From Planctomycetota bacterium (GTDB taxonomy: Bacteria > Planctomycetota > Planctomycetia > JALXBF01): a DNA stretch of 39,045 nucleotides. The position numbers and the translations under genes are program-made. The notes below the pieces were generated by a model. The model did no database searches and was not told the origin of the DNA. It saw nothing but the letters and a program-made list of their open reading frames with translations. The first letter of the stretch is position 1. The number at the start of each line of letters is the position of its first letter. The stretch covers positions 1 through 39,045 of the forward strand of contig JALXBF010000166.1 of NCBI GenBank assembly GCA_026991575.1, given 5' to 3'. Positions 22,436-31,931 of the stretch are shown here, piece by piece.

Positions 22436-22700
22436 CGATCTGCTCCAATCGCTGCCTTCCTCCCAATCCTACCGGGCCGACACAGGCGCGCAGCGCCGCG
22501 CAACCGTTCCCACCGCCAAAATCTTCAACACCGCTCCACCCGGCGGACGAAAAAAACGGTGAGCCCGGCTTCGCGGTGGCCAGGCCCGCAGTCGGTATGC
22601 CCGCCCACAGTGTGCTCCAGAAGCACTGTGGTGATTGACGTACCAGCCTGTCGACCGGCAACGTACTCGGCAGGGGGAAGCGGTCAAGGAGACCGTGCCG

Positions 22701-25700
22701 ATGCAGTCCAGATCTTCAGGACGCTTGCGGGGAGCATTCCTCTGGTGGTCACTGGCTTGTGGCCTCATCCTGAGCACCGTCGGCGGCTGCAGTCGAAAGT
22801 ACTATCGCCTGCAGGCCGACGCGGAAGCTTACCAACTCATCCAGGAGAAGGGCACCGACGAGCGGTGGGCACGACGTGAGTTCTCCGTCTATCCGGACGT
22901 GCGGTCGCGGTTCTACGACCCGTACGATCCGGATTACCCGCCGATGCCCCCAGACGATCCGGAGTCGCATCAGTTCATGCACGAAGTCTACGGCATGAAG
23001 GGTTCCAAACACTGGCACGATTACGGTGATCGGGTCGGCCTGGAAAACCCGTACTGGCGTGACTACCTTGAGCAGTTCATGCGGCGTGACGAGGACGGCT
23101 ACTACATCCTGGACTTGGATGCCACGATCCAGCTGGCCCTGCTGCACTCGCCCGACTACCAGCGAAACCTGGAAGAACTCTACCTGTCGGCCCTGGACGT
23201 TGCTTTCGAGCGATTCCGGTTCGACACCCAGTTCTTCGGCGGCAATCTAACAAACTGGTTCAGCCGCGGTCCACGCCACCCCCAGGCATTCGGCGGCCAG
23301 AGCAGCAGCCAGTTGAGTACCCGTACGTACCTGGGCCGCGGGGGCACGCGTACCCTTGGGGCCGTGGCCGGGATCCAGAAGCTGCTGCCCACCGGCGGAC
23401 AACTGCTGGCAAACTTCGCCAACAGCTTCGTCTGGGAATTCGCCGGCTCAGACCAGAACCTTCAGGCACGCAGCGTGTTCAGCTTTACGTTCATTCAACC
23501 GCTGCTGCGCGCAGGCGGCCGCGACGTGGTGCTCGAGCGGTTGACGATTGCCGAGCGGGCCCTCCTGGCAAACCTCCGTCAGATGGCCCGCTACGAGAAG
23601 CGCTTCTATGCGGACCTGTACTACGGCGGTGGCACCGGTAGTGGGCCGCGGCGGCGCGGTGGCTTCCTCGGTGGTGCCGGTCTGACAGGCTTCGTTGGCC
23701 TGGGTGCGGGCGGCTTTGGAAGCGTCGGCGAGGCGGTCGGCTTCGGCCGCTTCGGCGGTTTCGTGGGCGGCGGAGCTGCCGCTGGTGGTGCAGCCGGCGC
23801 CGGCTTTGCGGCGGGCGTCGCCGTGAACGTCGGCGGCTTCTACGGGCTGGTCCAGCGGATGCAGCAGATCCGTAACCGTGAAGCGAACCTGCAAGCTCAG
23901 TTCGATAACCTCGCCCGTGTGGAAGCTCTGTTCGAGGCCGGCCGAATTGACCGGCTGCAAGTCGACCAGTTCCGCCAGAACGTTCAGTCGGCACGGAGCC
24001 AGTACCTTGATGCGCTCGTCTCATTCCAACGCACATTGGAGAGCTTCTTGACCCGCACGCTCGGCCTACCACCAGACCTGCCGGTCAAGGTAGACGAAGA
24101 GGCGCTGCGGCCGTTCCAGTTCATGGCTCCGGAGGTCACGGCGCTGCAGCGCGAGGTGCGGGCTTACTTGGACGAGGTTCGCGGTGCGGAGTCTCCCAGC
24201 GGCGACCAGATCCGCCGCTGGATCGAACAGTTCCGCTCGTTTCGCGAGCAGATCGGCGACCAGCTAGCGGCGATTGCTGAGGATGTGCAGCGGGCTGAGG
24301 CACTCAGCGACGAACGGCTCCGTCACCTGGAGAGCGAAGAGGAGCGGCGGGAATTCCTCGATCAGCTCAAGACCGTGCACGAACGCTACGAAGAGCTCAT
24401 CAGCCGATTCCAGGCCACCGAAGCCCACGCGGCCGAAGTCGAACAACTGCTCGCCGAAGGCGACGTCGCGGCTGCCCACAACCGGCTGACCGCGTTCACG
24501 GACGAACTCAGCGTCCTGCTGCTGGACATGCCACTGGTGCAGGCCGCAGCCCGCCTGGAGACACTCATCCTGCAGCCGGTCGAACTCGACTCCGAACGCG
24601 CCTTCCGTATCGCCCTGGCAAACCGGCTCGACATCATGAACCAGCGCGCCGAGGTGGTCGATCAGTGGCGGCTGATTGCGTTCAACGCCGACGACCTCGA
24701 GAGCGACCTGGACATCGAATTCGGCGGCGAGATCAACACCGTGGACCGCAACATCGCCAAGTTCCGCGGCAAGGCGGGTCAGTTGACCGCTGCCCTGCAG
24801 TTCGATGCCCCGCTGACCCGTCTGGGTGAGCGGAACGAGTACCGCCAGGCCTTGATCGACTACCAACGGGTCCGCCGCGACTACATCGGGTTCCTGGACG
24901 CCGTCCATGCCAGTCTCCGCGACCTGCTACGACGGATCGACCAGTTCAAACAGGAGATGGAACTGCGCCGACGCGCCATGCGGATTGCCATCCGAACGAT
25001 GGACCTGACCCAGGAGCAGCTGCGGCAACCACCGCGCGTCACGGAAGGTCAGACGACCACGGGGCTCGGGCCCACCGCCGTGCGCGACCTGCTGGCCGCT
25101 TTCTCCGACTTGCTGAACACGCAGAACGACGTCATGGGTACCTACCTGAACTACGAAGCCCTCCGCATGCAGCTGTACATTGACCTTGGCATTGCCAAGT
25201 TCGACGAGCGCGGCCACTGGATTGACGAGCCGCTGGAGGACGCTCTCTACGGCGTCCCCGAGATGGATCCGTACGGGCCACCGCTGTGCCCGCTGGGCCA
25301 CTACGTCCCGCCGCCCGATCCGGCGGGAGCAGATCCCCACGAGTGTACGCCCGACTGCACGCACCCACAACCCGAGGATGGCGGCGCGCTGCCGCCCAGC
25401 GAACTCTGCCCCCACTGCACCGAGATCCGCTACTACCACACCCACGTGCGGAAGGCTTCTTCGAACCAGGACAACATCCAGCACGCCGTTGCGCGACAAC
25501 GGCCGCAGCGCAAGCCTGCCGTTCGGCTGGGCCTTTTCCAGCCCAACGCTCACAGCAGCAGCAGGACCGCCCGCCTGTCACCGAACGCTCCCGTGGTGCC
25601 CGCTGGCAAGGAACGCCCCCTCGTGGATAAGCCCCCGGTCGGGCTGCGCGACGTGATTCGCCGTATGCGGCCCGGACGTTCTGGGCCAGTTGGCCGTGGC

Positions 25701-26057
25701 GCTCACAGCCCGCCAAACGTCCTGCAAGTCCCCCGTGCACTGCCACTGGGGCCGATCCGTTCGGCCAAGCCAGCAACCTCTCCGCGATCGGTCCCTAGCG
25801 GAGCTCCCTCCCCGAGCCGCAAACCTACCTCGGCACCGTCTCCGCCACCACCAGCCGTGCGGCGTTGCCCAGTTTGCGGTCGTGCCGTAGGCAGCGGCTC
25901 CAGCGGCCTCCGCACCCATCAACGACACGGTGGTGCTCAGGGTGTGGTTCAGACTGCCAGTGCTGGTCCGGCGGCTGTGTCGGACTGCAACAAGGGCGGT
26001 TCGTCACACTGGGGCAGTCTTCAGCGTGAGTGGCGGGACGCGCAGGCAATCCGCTGA
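22701..26057 (+). CDS. TolC-family outer-membrane efflux lipoprotein with unusual insertions
   Basis: 1118 residues, more than twice typical TolC. The signal ends in a lipobox, LSTVGGC with Cys30. Outer-membrane-efflux repeats are visible as YYILDLDATIQLALLHSPDY (134-153), FSFTFIQPLLRAGGRDVVLE (260-279) and, in the second half, RAFRIALANRLDIMNQRAEV and LQFDAPLTRLGERNEYRQAL. Between FYADLYY and YGLVQRMQQI sits a Gly-rich insert (about 309-380). A long charged coiled-coil lies between the two repeats. After about residue 860 come Cys/His clusters (CTPDCTH, ELCPHCTE), a Pro/Arg/Ser-rich tail and a final CPVCGRAVGSGSSGLRTHQRH near 1055-1075. The ATG at 22701 follows AAGGAG (22686-22691). It is the first gene of the export cluster. 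Confidence 0.88.
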   Translation: MQSRSSGRLRGAFLWWSLACGLILSTVGGCSRKYYRLQADAEAYQLIQEKGTDERWARREFSVYPDVRSRFYDPYDPDYPPMPPDDPESHQFMHEVYGMKGSKHWHDYGDRVGLENPYWRDYLEQFMRRDEDGYYILDLDATIQLALLHSPDYQRNLEELYLSALDVAFERFRFDTQFFGGNLTNWFSRGPRHPQAFGGQSSSQLSTRTYLGRGGTRTLGAVAGIQKLLPTGGQLLANFANSFVWEFAGSDQNLQARSVFSFTFIQPLLRAGGRDVVLERLTIAERALLANLRQMARYEKRFYADLYYGGGTGSGPRRRGGFLGGAGLTGFVGLGAGGFGSVGEAVGFGRFGGFVGGGAAAGGAAGAGFAAGVAVNVGGFYGLVQRMQQIRNREANLQAQFDNLARVEALFEAGRIDRLQVDQFRQNVQSARSQYLDALVSFQRTLESFLTRTLGLPPDLPVKVDEEALRPFQFMAPEVTALQREVRAYLDEVRGAESPSGDQIRRWIEQFRSFREQIGDQLAAIAEDVQRAEALSDERLRHLESEEERREFLDQLKTVHERYEELISRFQATEAHAAEVEQLLAEGDVAAAHNRLTAFTDELSVLLLDMPLVQAAARLETLILQPVELDSERAFRIALANRLDIMNQRAEVVDQWRLIAFNADDLESDLDIEFGGEINTVDRNIAKFRGKAGQLTAALQFDAPLTRLGERNEYRQALIDYQRVRRDYIGFLDAVHASLRDLLRRIDQFKQEMELRRRAMRIAIRTMDLTQEQLRQPPRVTEGQTTTGLGPTAVRDLLAAFSDLLNTQNDVMGTYLNYEALRMQLYIDLGIAKFDERGHWIDEPLEDALYGVPEMDPYGPPLCPLGHYVPPPDPAGADPHECTPDCTHPQPEDGGALPPSELCPHCTEIRYYHTHVRKASSNQDNIQHAVARQRPQRKPAVRLGLFQPNAHSSSRTARLSPNAPVVPAGKERPLVDKPPVGLRDVIRRMRPGRSGPVGRGAHSPPNVLQVPRALPLGPIRSAKPATSPRSVPSGAPSPSRKPTSAPSPPPPAVRRCPVCGRAVGSGSSGLRTHQRHGGAQGVVQTASAGPAAVSDCNKGGSSHWGSLQREWRDAQAIR

Positions 26058-26427
26058 CTTTGGAAGTTAAGCACTTCTTTGAGTCACCTTTGTTCGCGGC
26101 CGCAGACCGCGCCGTGCCGGAAACGTGGCGCGACAGCGCGCGGTTTGTCGCTTGATATGGGTAGGGGTGTGTGGGGTCGGGGTCGTTCTACCGCTCGTTG
26201 CGCACGTTAGGCCGTCTGGGCGGGTAGAATGGCTCTAGTATGGCCATCGGTGCACAGCGTTCCCCGTTAGCGGCATTCCCCATGTTCAACCTGGGCGTTC
26301 TGTAGGCTCTGGGCGTTGTTGGGCCTGGTCGTAGCGTATAACCGGTGACAGCGCCCGTCGGAGTGTGATCGGGCGGACTTACGCAAGCAGCGGGAGCGGT
26401 GAGCGCCGCGCATTGTGGAGACAGGTC
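26058..26427. other. 370-base gap before the adaptor gene
   Basis: No gene is seen. A weak stem GCGACA/TGTCGC (26130-26151) follows the TolC-like gene, and a G/T-rich stretch (26159-26184) lies next. A TAGAAT box is at 26225-26230. The size of the gap suggests that the adaptor, permease, ATPase and redoxin genes are transcribed from their own promoter with a leader of up to about 190 nt. Confidence 0.4.
26225..26230 (+). promoter_or_regulatory. Possible -10 box TAGAAT upstream of the MacA-like gene
   Basis: TAGAAT ends 197 nt before the ATG at 26428. TTGCGC (26198-26203) is 21 nt upstream, too far for a standard -35 element. Evidence is mainly the recurrence of the box in this window. Confidence 0.25.
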
Positions 26428-28446
26428 ATGAGCAAGTCGGTAGGGTCGGCAACGGGTCGGAGCAGACTTGGGCAGGCATTGCGTTGGATTGTGCTGGCTG
26501 GTGCGGCCACGGGTCTGGCGGGCATTGCCGCCTTCACGCTAGGGGACCTCACTGGGGGCCCCGCACTGGAGGAGCTGGTGCTGACGCCGGTCGAGCGGCA
26601 GGATGTGGACATTGTCATCGTGGAGCGGGGCACGCTGGAAGCCGGGCGTAGCCAGGATTTGGTTTGCGAGGTTGAGAGCCGTAGTCCCGGAGCGCCGGCC
26701 ACGACAATCAAGTGGATCATTCCAGAGGGCACCTCGGTCAAAAAGGGCGATCTGGTATGCGAGCTGGATTCCGCAGCGTTGGAGGATGCCATACGTGCGC
26801 AGCGGATCAAGGTCGAGCAGGCCAAGGCGGCGCTGACGGCCGCGGAAGCGGATCTGGAGATCGTGCGGAGCCAGAACGAGTCGGACATCAAGGCTGCTGA
26901 GCGAACTGTGCAGCTTGCTGAGATCGACCTGAAGAAGTACCTGGAAGGGGACTATCCCAAAGAGCGACGCACGATCGAGGGCAACATTCTGATTGCGCGC
27001 GAGGAGCTACGTCGGGCCGAGGAACGGCTGAAGTATACGGAGCGGCTGTACAAGAAGGGCTTCGTCAGCGCGACGGACGTGGAAGCAGACCGGCTGGCGG
27101 TCATGCGGGCGCGCAACACACTGGAGATGGCCGAGGAAGAGCTGCGCGTGCTGGAGCAGTATACCAAGCCACGTACGGTGACCGAGTTGCAAGGTGCGTT
27201 GGAAGAGGCGAAGCGGGCACTGGAGCGGGTCAAGACCCAGGCGAAGGCCAAGGAGGCCCAGGCGCAGGATACGCTGCTTGCGCAGAAAGCGACCTACGAG
27301 ACAGAGCTGTCCACGCTGAAGAACCTCGAGTACCAGCTCAGCAAGTGCAAGCTATACGCACCCTGTGACGGCATGGTCGTGTATGCGAACGAGCGGTCCC
27401 GCTGGCGTCAGGAGGTGCAGATTGAGGAAGGGGCCTCAGTTCGGGAGGGACAGAAGATCATCCGCATCCCGGACTTGAGCTCTATGCAGGTCAATGTCAA
27501 AGTCCACGAAGCGAAGGTCTCGTATGTACGGCCCGGTCAGCCGGCGATCGTGCGGGTCGAGTCCAGACCGGACGTGGCCTTGAGAGGGCGGGTCAAGTCG
27601 GTGGCCACGATGGCGGACGCTCAGAGCTGGTTCTCGACGGGTGTCCAGGTGTTCACCGTGTTGGTCGCCCTCGACGATCCACCTGAGTGGCTCAAGCCCG
27701 GCATGACGGCCAACGTGCAGATTCTGGCCGACCGGGTCGAGGATGTTCTGGCTGTGCCGGTGCATGCTGTGATCGAGGTGAACGGCAGTTACTTCTGCTT
27801 TGTCAAGCGGGGTGCGGGCATGCCGGAGCCGGTCGAGGTCGTGCTCGGGCCCAGCAACGACAAACTGGTCGTCGTCGAATCGGGCCTGAAGGAAGGCGAC
27901 CTGGTGGTCAACAACGTCCTGTCAGTTGCCGACGACGCGGTGCTGAAGCGGTTGCGTGAAAGGACGAAGGGCTCGGCAGTTGCGGCGCAGGATCGAAAGC
28001 TCTTCAAGACGCTCTCCCGCCAGAGCGCCGGCGGTAGGGGGGCTATTGCTCAGCATGGTACGGCCGCTGGCCCCGGAGCGGTAGCTCACGGTGGTGGCGG
28101 GCCAGCTGCTGGGCCGGGCGGTAGGCCGTCCGCTGGGGACGGGCGTAAGCGGCGCGCCGGCTCAGGGGGTGGTCCAGGGGGCGGTCGTTTTCAGCTGCCT
28201 GCTTCTGGCGCAGCGTACATCGCCCGCTACGACAAGAACGGTGATGGCAAGCTCACGGAGGACGAGCTACCGGAGCGGGCACGGCGCCGATTTGCCCAAA
28301 TGGATAGCAACGGAGACGGTGTCATCGACCAGGCGGAAGCCGACGCGCTGGTGCGTCGCATTCGCGAAATGATCAAACGTTTCCGCCAGCAGGGAGGCGG
28401 GGGGCCTGGTGGCTTCCCGGGTGGTCCTGGCGGGGGGCCGCGCTAG
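26428..28446 (+). CDS. HlyD/MacA-type periplasmic adaptor with C-terminal EF-hands
   Basis: 672 residues. An N-terminal membrane anchor (about 16-40) is followed by the first lipoyl half (PEGTSVKKGDLVCELDSAAL), a long coiled-coil hairpin rich in Glu, Ala and Lys (about 115-305), the second lipoyl half (CKLYAPCDGMVVYAN, EEGASVREGQKIIRIPDLSS) and beta-barrel and membrane-proximal domains (KPGMTANVQI, VLAVPVHAVIEVNGSYF). This is a complete adaptor. A Gly/Pro-rich linker then leads to two calcium-binding loops, DKNGDGKLTEDE (602-613) and DSNGDGVIDQAE (626-637), and a Gly-rich end. EF-hands on this family are not usual. The ATG at 26428 has GGAG 7 nt upstream. It should bridge the MacB-like transporter and the TolC-like protein. 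Confidence 0.92.
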   Translation: MSKSVGSATGRSRLGQALRWIVLAGAATGLAGIAAFTLGDLTGGPALEELVLTPVERQDVDIVIVERGTLEAGRSQDLVCEVESRSPGAPATTIKWIIPEGTSVKKGDLVCELDSAALEDAIRAQRIKVEQAKAALTAAEADLEIVRSQNESDIKAAERTVQLAEIDLKKYLEGDYPKERRTIEGNILIAREELRRAEERLKYTERLYKKGFVSATDVEADRLAVMRARNTLEMAEEELRVLEQYTKPRTVTELQGALEEAKRALERVKTQAKAKEAQAQDTLLAQKATYETELSTLKNLEYQLSKCKLYAPCDGMVVYANERSRWRQEVQIEEGASVREGQKIIRIPDLSSMQVNVKVHEAKVSYVRPGQPAIVRVESRPDVALRGRVKSVATMADAQSWFSTGVQVFTVLVALDDPPEWLKPGMTANVQILADRVEDVLAVPVHAVIEVNGSYFCFVKRGAGMPEPVEVVLGPSNDKLVVVESGLKEGDLVVNNVLSVADDAVLKRLRERTKGSAVAAQDRKLFKTLSRQSAGGRGAIAQHGTAAGPGAVAHGGGGPAAGPGGRPSAGDGRKRRAGSGGGPGGGRFQLPASGAAYIARYDKNGDGKLTEDELPERARRRFAQMDSNGDGVIDQAEADALVRRIREMIKRFRQQGGGGPGGFPGGPGGGPR

Positions 28447-28499: not shown

Positions 28500-29795
28500 A
28501 TGAGTGCTGGGCCGTCTCTTGGACTTGTCGTCCAGATGGGGCTGAAGAGCCTCTGGATGCACAAGGTCCGCAGTCTGCTTGCGGGCCTGGGCATCGTTAT
28601 TGGCACGGCCGCCGTCATCTCGCTGCTGACCATCGGTGCCGGGTCGCGCAAGGAAGCGCTGGAGGCAATCAAGGCTTTGGGCGCGACGAACTTGATCGTC
28701 GCTAGCGTCAAGCCGCCGCAGGATTCGTCTGACGCGACCCGTCGAGCGCGTATCCTGAAGTACGGCCTCACCTGGGAAGATTACGAACGCTTCGCGGCCA
28801 TCCCGACCGTGTGGCGCGCGCTGCCAATCCGGGCGTTCCCAGCCGAGATCTGGTACCTGGAAAACAAGTTTGACGGCCGTGTCGTAGCAACCACACCGCG
28901 CTACGCGGAAATGAATCGGCTCCACCTCTTATCGGGCAGGTTCCTGACGGACCGAGACGAGGACACGTTCGATAACGTGGCCGTGCTCGGCTTTGACGTC
29001 GCGCGCGAGCTGTTCCGATATGAGGATCCGATCGGCAAGTCGATCAAGATGGGGAACCACTACTATCGGGTCGTCGGTGTCATGGACTATCGGATCCCGT
29101 CGGCTGGTATCGGTGGTAGTCTGGCACGCGAGGACTACAACAAGGACGTCTACATCCCGCTGTCAACGTGCCGCGCGCGGTTCGGAGCGTGGATCATCGA
29201 TCGACGTTCTGGTCAGTTCACTGCTGAGGAGCTAGAGCTGAGTCAGGTAACGTTGTCGGTGCGCGATGTTGATGACGTGCGCCCGACGGCGGCCATTCTG
29301 AAAACGCTCCTAGAAAAGTACCACGATCAACCCGACTATCAGATCACCGTCCCGCTGGATCTGCTTGAGGATGCCGAACGGACTGCCCTCTTATGGGCCG
29401 TTTTCCTCGGGGTTGTTGCCGGTATTTCGCTCCTGGTTGGCGGCATTGGCATTGCCAACATCATGCTTGCCACCGTCATGGAACGGACCCGGGAAATCGG
29501 TATTCGACGGGCGATCGGTGCCAAGCAACGGCACATTGCGCAGCAGTTCCTGGTCGAAGCAGTCATTCTGACGGCCATCGGCGGCGTGGTCGGCCTGGTG
29601 CTCGGGGTGGTGACACCCGAACTCATTGCGTTCGTGGCTGATGCGCTGTTCGATTATCAGGTGCGGACGCAGATTCTCTGGTGGAGTTTGCCGATGGCAC
29701 CGGCCATTGCCGTGGTCGTCGGCGTGCTGTCCGGACTGTACCCGGCCCGGCGGGCCGCGCTGATGGACCCGATCGAAGCGTTGCGGCACGAGTAG
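28500..29795 (+). CDS. MacB-like ABC transporter permease (FtsX family)
   Basis: 431 residues with the MacB/LolC topology: one membrane helix near the N-terminus (KSLWMHKVRSLLAGLGIVIG then AAVISLLTIG, about 18-45), a large periplasmic domain (about 46-295) and three helices at the end (LLWAVFLGVVAGISLLVGGI, AVILTAIGGVVGLVLGVV, MAPAIAVVVGVLSGLYPA). ERTREIGIRRAIGAK is the conserved FtsX cytoplasmic loop and PARRAALMDPIEALRHE the conserved end. The ATPase domain is separate and encoded next. MacB-type proteins act by mechanotransmission, moving substrates from the periplasm outward through a TolC channel. The ATG at 28500 follows a GAGAGGG site; 53 nt separate it from the adaptor gene. Confidence 0.94.
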   Translation: MSAGPSLGLVVQMGLKSLWMHKVRSLLAGLGIVIGTAAVISLLTIGAGSRKEALEAIKALGATNLIVASVKPPQDSSDATRRARILKYGLTWEDYERFAAIPTVWRALPIRAFPAEIWYLENKFDGRVVATTPRYAEMNRLHLLSGRFLTDRDEDTFDNVAVLGFDVARELFRYEDPIGKSIKMGNHYYRVVGVMDYRIPSAGIGGSLAREDYNKDVYIPLSTCRARFGAWIIDRRSGQFTAEELELSQVTLSVRDVDDVRPTAAILKTLLEKYHDQPDYQITVPLDLLEDAERTALLWAVFLGVVAGISLLVGGIGIANIMLATVMERTREIGIRRAIGAKQRHIAQQFLVEAVILTAIGGVVGLVLGVVTPELIAFVADALFDYQVRTQILWWSLPMAPAIAVVVGVLSGLYPARRAALMDPIEALRHE

Positions 29796-29843: not shown

Positions 29844-30674
29844 ATGACCGTACAGCCAAGTCAGATCACCGAGCGAGAACGGCAGCCTGACGCAGGTTTG
29901 CAGACCTCCGGAGAGCCCGTCGTTCGCATCGTCGACATCCACAAGGACTATTACCTAGGTAGTGTCGTCGTGCCGGCGCTGCGCGGGGTCTCGCTGGAAG
30001 TGTACCCCGGTGAGTTCATCGCGATCATGGGCGCGTCCGGTTCGGGAAAATCGACGCTGCTAAACCTGCTTGGCTGCCTGGACCGCCCCACGCGTGGCCA
30101 GTATTACCTGGGCGGGCGAAACGTCGCAAATCTCAGCGATGATGAACTTTCTGAGATCCGCAGCCGCTACATCGGGTTCATCTTTCAGTCCTACAACCTC
30201 ATTCCTCAGCTGACCGCGTTCGAGAACATCGAGGTGCCGCTCTATTACCAGGGTAACGTAAGCCCTGAGTCGAAGCAGCGGGTTGTCGAGCTGGCACGTC
30301 TGGTAGGCTTGGAGCGGTGGCTAAACCACAAACCAACCCAACTCTCCGGTGGCCAGCAGCAGCGCGTTGCGATTGCCCGCGCATTGATCAACGATCCGTA
30401 CATCATCCTAGCCGATGAGCCAACCGGGAACCTGGACACGAGCACCAGTTACGAGATCATGAAACTGCTCGTACAACTCAACGACATGGGGAAGACGATC
30501 ATCATGGTCACGCACGAACCGGACATTGCTGCATACGCCAAGCGTGCGGTGCACATGCGTGACGGTAAGATCATCAAGGACGAGCCGATAACGCAGCGAC
30601 GGGTCACTTCAGATGGCCCCGTGCCGGCCGGCGCACAGCTCACCGCCAGTGCGGGCCAGGACGCGGGCGAGTAG
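29844..30674 (+). CDS. MacB/LolD-type ABC transporter ATPase
   Basis: 276 residues. Walker A GASGSGKS (63-70), Q-loop Gln115 in [16 protein letters not shown], signature LSGGQ (167-171), Walker B IILADE (187-192) and switch His224 in MVTHEPD are all present, so it should be active. [10 protein letters not shown] and the [16 protein letters not shown] start are typical of the MacB/LolD/FtsE branch. A 25-residue lead and a 30-residue tail beyond the usual domain are low in complexity. It pairs with the permease encoded 48 nt upstream. No specific substrate can be inferred. Confidence 0.95.
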
Positions 30675-30725: not shown

Positions 30726-31931
30726 ATGAAGCAGAGTACAGCGTACACCAACGCCGCTGTCCCGCCGCACGACGGACACACCGTCACGGCGCACGGGGCG
30801 CGGCGCCGCCGGTTGGTTTTTCTTGTGACCATCGCCGTACTGATTCCTGTGTGCGGCTGGCGGCTCCAGCAATTGGCCCGGCAACCGGCCGCCACCGATG
30901 GTTCGGTGGATCCGCGCTGGTTGCTCCGCTGCTACACGCGAGCACGCCGGACGTTTGCTCCAGGTGATCGCACCGGTGTCCTCCCAGGCCATCTCTACGG
31001 ACGACCGATTCTGTTGGCTGTCCAGCTTGCTCGGGATCCTGACGCCGGGTACTGGCCGCTCGTGGCGATGGTTACCGGTGCTGATTTTCTAGCCGCCCAT
31101 CGTGCGGAGGCTGCCGTGGAATTGGTGCGACGCTACGCTGATCGGAAGGAACATCTCGTCCGCCTTTTCCTCGGCACCTCTGATCAGTCGTTTTACGACC
31201 CCCGGCCGATGTACCAAGCGCTGTTACGCGAGAGCTCGCTGGACGATCTGCTTCGTGCCGTCATCTGCTACAGCTACGCGGAATGGCTGGCGCGCTACCA
31301 GCCACGTTCCGTTGCGCGCGACGAACAGATCCGACGGCTCTGTCAGACTGCCTTGGAGCATGGCGCCGAGAAGGTGCGCCATCCGATCTTTCCCCCGTAT
31401 ACGCTGGCGGATATGGCATCCATGCTGGTGCGGGAAGTGGACGCTGTGCGTCCGGGTAAGCCGGCCCCCTCGATTCGCGGCGTCGATCTGGCCGGTCGCA
31501 AGATGAGTCTCGAGGACTTTCGCGGAAAGGTCGTGCTGCTGTACTTTTGGGGAGCTTGGTGACCGGTTTGCGCCGCGTGGCGCGACTGCGAGCGGTCGCT
31601 CGCTGAAATGTTCCCCCCGGAGAAGGTTGCCCTATTGGGAGTGAACAGCGACCCAGACCCCAGGGTTGCTGCTGCCGACCTGGTCCGGGGATGGCGCTCC
31701 TGGTGGGACGGCGGTACCACAGGCCAGATCGCACGTGACTACGCTGTGGTTGTCTACCCGACGCTCTTTGTCATTGACCAGCAAGGCGTGATTGTGGCGC
31801 GGTTTGAGAAGAACCAGTTCGACCAGCGGCTGTGTGACCGCGTTAAGAAACTGGTGCAGGACCTCTTGGACCGCCCGCCCGATCCGGCTGCGGCCGACGC
31901 GGTCCAGGGCAACTGCATGGAGGGCAGCTGA
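30726..31931 (+). CDS. Membrane-anchored redoxin, candidate selenoprotein with in-frame UGA (Sec279)
   Basis: Read through the TGA at 31560-31562, the gene has 401 residues. A membrane helix (about 29-46) is followed by a helical region of unknown family and, from about 237, a TlpA/AhpC-like thioredoxin fold: GKPAPSIRGVDL, FRGKVVLLYFWGAW, then TGA, then PVCAAWRDCERSLAE, VALLGVNSDPD, GWRSWWDGG, and VVVYPTLFVIDQQG with cis-Pro345. The TGA takes the place of the first Cys of CxxC, giving U279-P-V-C282; Cys288 is an extra thiol. The downstream frame is open for 122 codons and clearly homologous. TGA serves as a normal stop for other genes here (5851, 7079, 8665, 26057). If not decoded, the product is a 278-residue truncated protein, i.e. 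a pseudogene. It follows the ABC genes by 51 nt. The start ATG has no strong ribosome binding site. Confidence 0.75.
31563..31605 (+). promoter_or_regulatory. Candidate bacterial SECIS element after the UGA codon
   Basis: Directly after the TGA two hairpins can form. The first pairs 31568-31574 with 31579-31585 (7 pairs, GCGT loop). The second pairs GCGAGC (31588-31593) with GCTCGC (31598-31603) around the loop GGTC (31594-31597), which begins after 31 intervening nt. A short stem with G at the start of the apical loop, within a few tens of nt of UGA, is the known bacterial SECIS pattern, and the E. coli fdhF loop also starts GGUC. The structure lies inside the coding frame, as expected in bacteria. 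GC-rich coding DNA forms hairpins easily, so this is support rather than proof. Confidence 0.55.

Follow-up and report, generated by a model that had tools for sequence, protein, structure and literature searches.

A putative membrane-anchored selenocysteine redoxin with a near-invariant SECIS hairpin in a planctomycete-type bacterium

Introduction

Reviews of bacterial selenoproteins list Prx-like thiol:disulfide oxidoreductases (PF00578) with UxxC and UxxU motifs, as well as a UxxC redoxin family (PMC13188914, Table 1; PMC9312934). Selenocysteine (Sec) machinery, together with several selenoproteins, has also been reported in planctomycetes (PMC4807772), so the kind of protein considered here is already known; planctomycetes themselves are not mentioned in the two reviews (PMC13188914, PMC9312934). 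The locus described below lies in a window of 39,045 nucleotides, which is the whole stretch of DNA that was analysed. A preliminary description had proposed that it encodes a membrane-anchored Sec-containing redoxin next to an export cluster.

Results

The redoxin frame contains a single internal stop, a TGA at codon 279, which is read in the context VVLLYFWGAW-U-PVCAAW (translation). As had been claimed, this TGA lies exactly on the first redox residue (FWGAW-U-PVC), and the frame then remains open for 122 codons, including the YPT cis-proline (VVYPT), up to a terminal TGA at 31929-31931. GC content by codon position was 0.71/0.50/0.70 before the internal TGA versus 0.71/0.46/0.78 after it and, as these values are similar on both sides, the downstream part of the frame looks coding. 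The Pfam AhpC-TSA (E 2.4e-17) and Redoxin matches run across the TGA (residues 243-362), with a PF00578 score of 63.5 bits against a gathering score of 26. Homology therefore continues on both sides of an in-frame UGA, a pattern by which bacterial selenoproteins are recognised. The nearest solved structures were ResA/DsbE-type oxidoreductases, and the UxxC motif at the redox site is UPVC.

Upstream of this domain, residues up to about 240 matched no Pfam family. A kinship between this N-terminal half and the N-termini of other members was considered and rejected, the profile search giving an E-value of 0.63, inside the shuffled background. The hydrophobic anchor and the arginines just before it suggest an N-in orientation, with the remainder of the protein outside the cytoplasm.

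Table 1. Positions of the predicted redoxin gene, its features and its upstream neighbours in the window
Feature	Position	Strand	Details
Outer-membrane efflux (TolC-like) protein, upstream neighbour	22635..26057	+	PF02321, E 1.9e-4; weak, just under cut-off
HlyD-family adaptor, upstream neighbour	26365..28446	+	Pfam
MacB-type permease, upstream neighbour	28500..29795	+	Pfam
ABC ATPase, upstream neighbour	29844..30674	+	Pfam; ends 51 bp before the redoxin gene
Predicted Sec-containing redoxin gene	30726..31931	+	401 residues with TGA read as Sec (residue 279)
Membrane anchor, residues 30-48 (LVFLVTIAVLIPVCGWRLQ)	30813..30869	+	RRRR just before; Kyte-Doolittle maximum 1.92
N-terminal domain of the redoxin, kind not assigned by Pfam	30870..31442	+	No Pfam match
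Thioredoxin-fold redoxin domain (AhpC-TSA/Redoxin/ResA-like), residues 243-362	31452..31811	+	Pfam, solved structures, NCBIfam
UGA codon, putatively for selenocysteine; first residue of the UPVC active site	31560..31562	+	
Putative SECIS hairpin GCGAGC[GGUC]GCUCGC	31588..31603	+	6 bp; loop 31 nt after UGA

The Sec machinery, on whose presence the preliminary description had made its reading depend, was found: tRNA-Sec, selA, selB and selD are grouped on one contig (C184) of the window's genome. The tRNA-Sec scored 73 bits and was also called by ARAGORN, with the anticodon TCA, and the selD, selB and selA products were above the NCBIfam cut-offs. The selD gene (L009, 4999-6054) carries its own Sec-type TGA, in CAG-U-AGK, and the conserved SelD N-terminus can be reached only through it. 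A hairpin, CCGCAC[AGGUU]GUGCGG, follows this TGA at the same 31-nt spacing as in the redoxin. On this pattern, selD is itself a predicted Sec gene; ordinary gene-calling software would place its start downstream of the UGA and so miss the conserved N-terminus. Two DsbD_TM proteins were also found in this genome, as were 21 copies of the PSCyt2 domain. None of 14 control genomes had this domain above the cut-off, and the 21 copies suggest that the genome is that of a planctomycete.

Among the best homologues from 59 genomes of the class, TGA was present at the aligned codon in G001, G038, G041 and G057, the best homologue in G011 was a UxxU form, and 25 CxxC homologues stood beside these TGA forms. 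We then searched DNA with the pattern V-(hydrophobic)-x-(hydrophobic)-x-F-W-xxx-U-xx-(C/U/W), using the reversed pattern as a control. The pattern was matched in 59 of 398 genomes of the class and the reversed pattern in none, which upholds the earlier argument that the position of the TGA is beyond chance; with dozens of UGA forms and 25 Cys forms, the recurrence of TGA at the same codon in relatives was likewise confirmed. Reading of the 89 distinct TGA matches gave 68 UxxC, 21 UxxU and no UxxW, although the pattern permitted W; two of these matches (L074 and L131) were not credible genes and one (L083) had a broken frame. SelB was above the cut-off in 54 of the 59 TGA genomes versus 20 of 53 TGA-less genomes of the first set (p 1e-9). 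Of the five TGA genomes without SelB over the cut-off, four were 75-88% complete and one had SelB split across two contigs.

On the tree, a long branch of 1.41 changes per column leads to the window protein, the UxxU proteins form one clade (SH-aLRT 100), and the distribution of Sec versus Cys needs at least 7 changes. A search of genome contigs returned two distant matches only. Other genomes hold several copies, with six Sec-redoxin pattern matches in G199 and five in G247, which represent a local expansion of selenoproteins. In G093, three near-identical Sec redoxin genes lie in tandem (L099, 3000-5850), the last cut by the contig end, and one further copy is present on contig C12. The window redoxin belongs to a widespread, little-described selenium redoxin group of planctomycete-type bacteria.

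Within the 75 nt from the UGA, a near-invariant block was observed, (A/G)CGAGC[GGUC]GCUCG(U/C), whose loop starts 31 nt after the UGA. This hairpin was present in 59 of 59 core-family TGA genes, with pair-preserving changes in a few, versus 0 of 25 Cys homologues. Membership of the core family ("A") had been decided by a peptide motif lying partly over the hairpin, so every TGA match was counted again under a looser rule, free of the protein motif: a GGU- or GU-loop hairpin was found in 85 of 88 TGA matches versus 0 of 25 Cys homologues, and in 1.8% of shuffled sequences. The core 12-mer GAGCGGTCGCTC at the correct spacing occurred, across genomes, 58 times after TGA and 12 times after TGY. 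In the shifted control, in which the spacing was one base too long, it occurred 16 times after TGA and 33 times after TGY, the ratio expected by chance (p 3e-8 for the difference between the two spacings).

Compensatory changes were observed at two pairs (A-U to G-C in the window, G-C to C-G in L049) and G-U pairs in six further cells; all 186 cells of the hairpin alignment pair. Since the two double changes arose only once each, the covariation, though real, is small, and the fixed spacing and sequence are a stronger argument for a SECIS than the covariation. The window hairpin agrees with the published bSECIS model (PMC13188914) in each of its four constraints. It encodes the peptide ERSL, which is retained in the window (CERSL) despite diverged surrounding residues. 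Folding of the whole 3' stretch favoured, over the 31588-31603 hairpin, a larger minimum-energy structure directly after the UGA, with an apical loop GCGU 12 nt away. This structure was dropped: its energy was ordinary versus shuffles, it does not fit the bSECIS spacing and it is not conserved. An Rfam search of the locus returned chance matches only.

The hairpin provides a DNA-level signature for finding such genes, independent of protein homology. Moreover, because ERSL is the imprint of the hairpin on the protein, former Sec genes can be searched for among Cys homologues and Sec/Cys conversions become testable. One sequence, G171:C359:49175-49216, has TGC followed by GAGCGGTCGCTC and reads C-G-F-C-R-S-L-Y-P-F-E-R-S-L; it may be a former Sec gene converted to Cys in which the old SECIS persists.

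Two related types of Sec redoxin were also observed. The 21 UxxU matches have two TGA codons at a distance of nine nt but a single hairpin, placed 31 nt after the first TGA (L052, L058, L059, L070, L082, L087-L090, L092, L094, L100, L102, L105, L112, L115, L130, L132, L134, among others). These are likely double-Sec proteins, apart from one UxxU match with a broken frame (L083), and, with two Sec codons and one SECIS, their clade offers a natural system for how SelB handles UGAs nine nt apart. A second Sec redoxin family, shorter and marked by HLVEMH or HLVQMH, has its own conserved hairpin, CAUCU[GGUCG or GGUUC]AGAUG, about 30 nt after the UGA (L057, L061-L063, L066, L067, L072, L073, L076-L081, L101, L104, L109-L111, L114, L117).

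The MacAB-TolC-type neighbours were present upstream as the preliminary description had them, namely a weakly matching OEP-like protein, an HlyD adaptor, a MacB permease and an ABC ATPase. The HlyD, MacB, ABC and redoxin genes share one strand and are each separated by about 50 bp, and a search for a terminator-like site between the ABC and redoxin genes (a weak test) found none; these two genes are perhaps co-transcribed. The HlyD-type adaptor exhibited C-terminal EF-hand motifs (Pfam EF-hand, residues 619-666), which are unusual in an export adaptor. Among 60 related Sec-redoxin loci of 5-19 kb, none had a MacB, HlyD or OEP neighbour, and one had a weak ABC match. In two of the 60, the Sec redoxin adjoins selA and selB (L049, 8308-11950, in G041; L052, 825-7037, in G011), and in G011 also selD.

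Discussion

Judged from the nucleotide sequence and its comparison across genomes, the apparent stop at 31560-31562 is almost certainly read as selenocysteine, and the reading of 30726-31931 as a putative selenoprotein gene is strongly supported. The membrane-anchored UxxC redoxin of the preliminary description thus stands, on account of the anchor at residues 30-48, the Sec machinery, the TGA in relatives and the SECIS hairpin. If genes are annotated as ending at TGA, the window protein and its relatives would be truncated at residue 278 or divided into pieces.

We consider it very probable that the gene encodes a membrane-anchored thioredoxin-fold selenoprotein, with SECIS-directed Sec insertion and an extracytoplasmic redox cycle fed by a donor of the CcdA/DsbD kind. 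During translation, SelB-GTP-Sec-tRNASec would bind the GGUC hairpin 31 nt downstream of the UGA, and Sec would be inserted to give the active site U-P-V-C. The anchor would place the redoxin domain outside the cytoplasm, where Sec may attack a disulfide or a peroxide-type substrate and form a selenenylsulfide with the resolving Cys of UPVC. A membrane electron donor of the CcdA/DsbD kind, presumably one of the two DsbD_TM proteins, would then re-reduce the redoxin. In this scheme, comparison with other sequences underlies the prediction that the UGA encodes Sec and the identification of the SECIS, the Sec machinery, the fold and the two DsbD_TM proteins. The topology, redox direction, substrate and electron donor are inferred.

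That the frame is instead a pseudogene, in which a Cys redoxin was broken at the Cys codon by a nonsense mutation or a sequencing error, would fit the divergence of the window protein, and a precedent exists in the pattern match L131, where a TGA is present but the frame closes after 18 codons and there is no hairpin. In the window, however, codon-position composition and homology persist for 122 codons past the TGA, the SECIS stands at the exact spacing of the family with a compensatory change, and TGA occupies the same codon in dozens of genomes, mostly with SelB; we therefore regard a pseudogene as very unlikely. There is even less room for UGA being read as another amino acid, such as Trp or Cys, through a changed code or a suppressor tRNA. 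The frame 30726-31931 would then be open, but several window genes stop at TGA, so there is no general recoding, a point on which the preliminary description was right; moreover, a tRNA-Sec with the anticodon TCA, SelA, SelB and SelD are present, and the SECIS goes with the TGA. We give this explanation next to no weight.

An addition to the selenoprotein reading, rather than an alternative to it, is that the redoxin works specifically for the adjoining MacAB-TolC-type exporter, as its redox component, and sets the disulfide state of its adaptor, its outer-membrane component or the product it exports. The common strand and short gaps from HlyD to the redoxin, as well as the anchor and the likely extracytoplasmic redoxin domain, are in line with it. 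The pairing is nevertheless absent from the 60 related loci, two of which have selA and selB as neighbours instead, and we consider such a role unlikely; the earlier suggestion that the redoxin acts on the exported product or the export machine was accordingly not borne out. In the window species, proximity alone makes a functional link to the export cluster possible. A broader proposal would have one near-frozen SECIS, at a fixed 31-nt spacing, serve the core of this lineage's selenoproteome, both UxxC and UxxU redoxins, with hairpins of the same loop type in an unrelated redoxin family and in SelD, and the window copy also recruited to an exporter operon. Taken as a whole it is speculative and unlikely.

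Returning to the selenoprotein itself, its closest solved structures and NCBIfam profiles are those of ResA, DsbE (CcmG) and TlpA, from which it differs by Sec in place of the first Cys and by a larger N-terminal part; its scores were under the equivalog cut-offs (51.6 of 170 for ResA, 28.8 of 123 for dsbE and 27 of 230 for TlpA). The selenoprotein redoxins redoxin_TUGYCR (NF053656) and WAxxUGC_long (NF041054) are weakly similar and have a different motif, with 22.5 bits of the 100 needed and 21.4 of 300, respectively, again under the cut-offs. No NCBIfam selenoredoxin model covers the window redoxin or the three other members tested.

The Prx-like PF00578 selenoproteins share with the window group the Pfam domain, Sec at the first redox residue and the occurrence of both UxxC and UxxU forms. 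Compared with these, the window member carries an additional, anchored domain at its N-terminus, and the window group has one near-fixed SECIS hairpin throughout. Whereas the bSECIS is described by a consensus model (PMC13188914, Fig. 2), a virtually identical element is common to 59 genes here. In the main texts of open-access papers, neither the shared hairpin nor the copy number (up to six pattern matches per genome) was found described. What is new here is the near-frozen SECIS, the 21 UxxU members in one clade and the several copies per genome.
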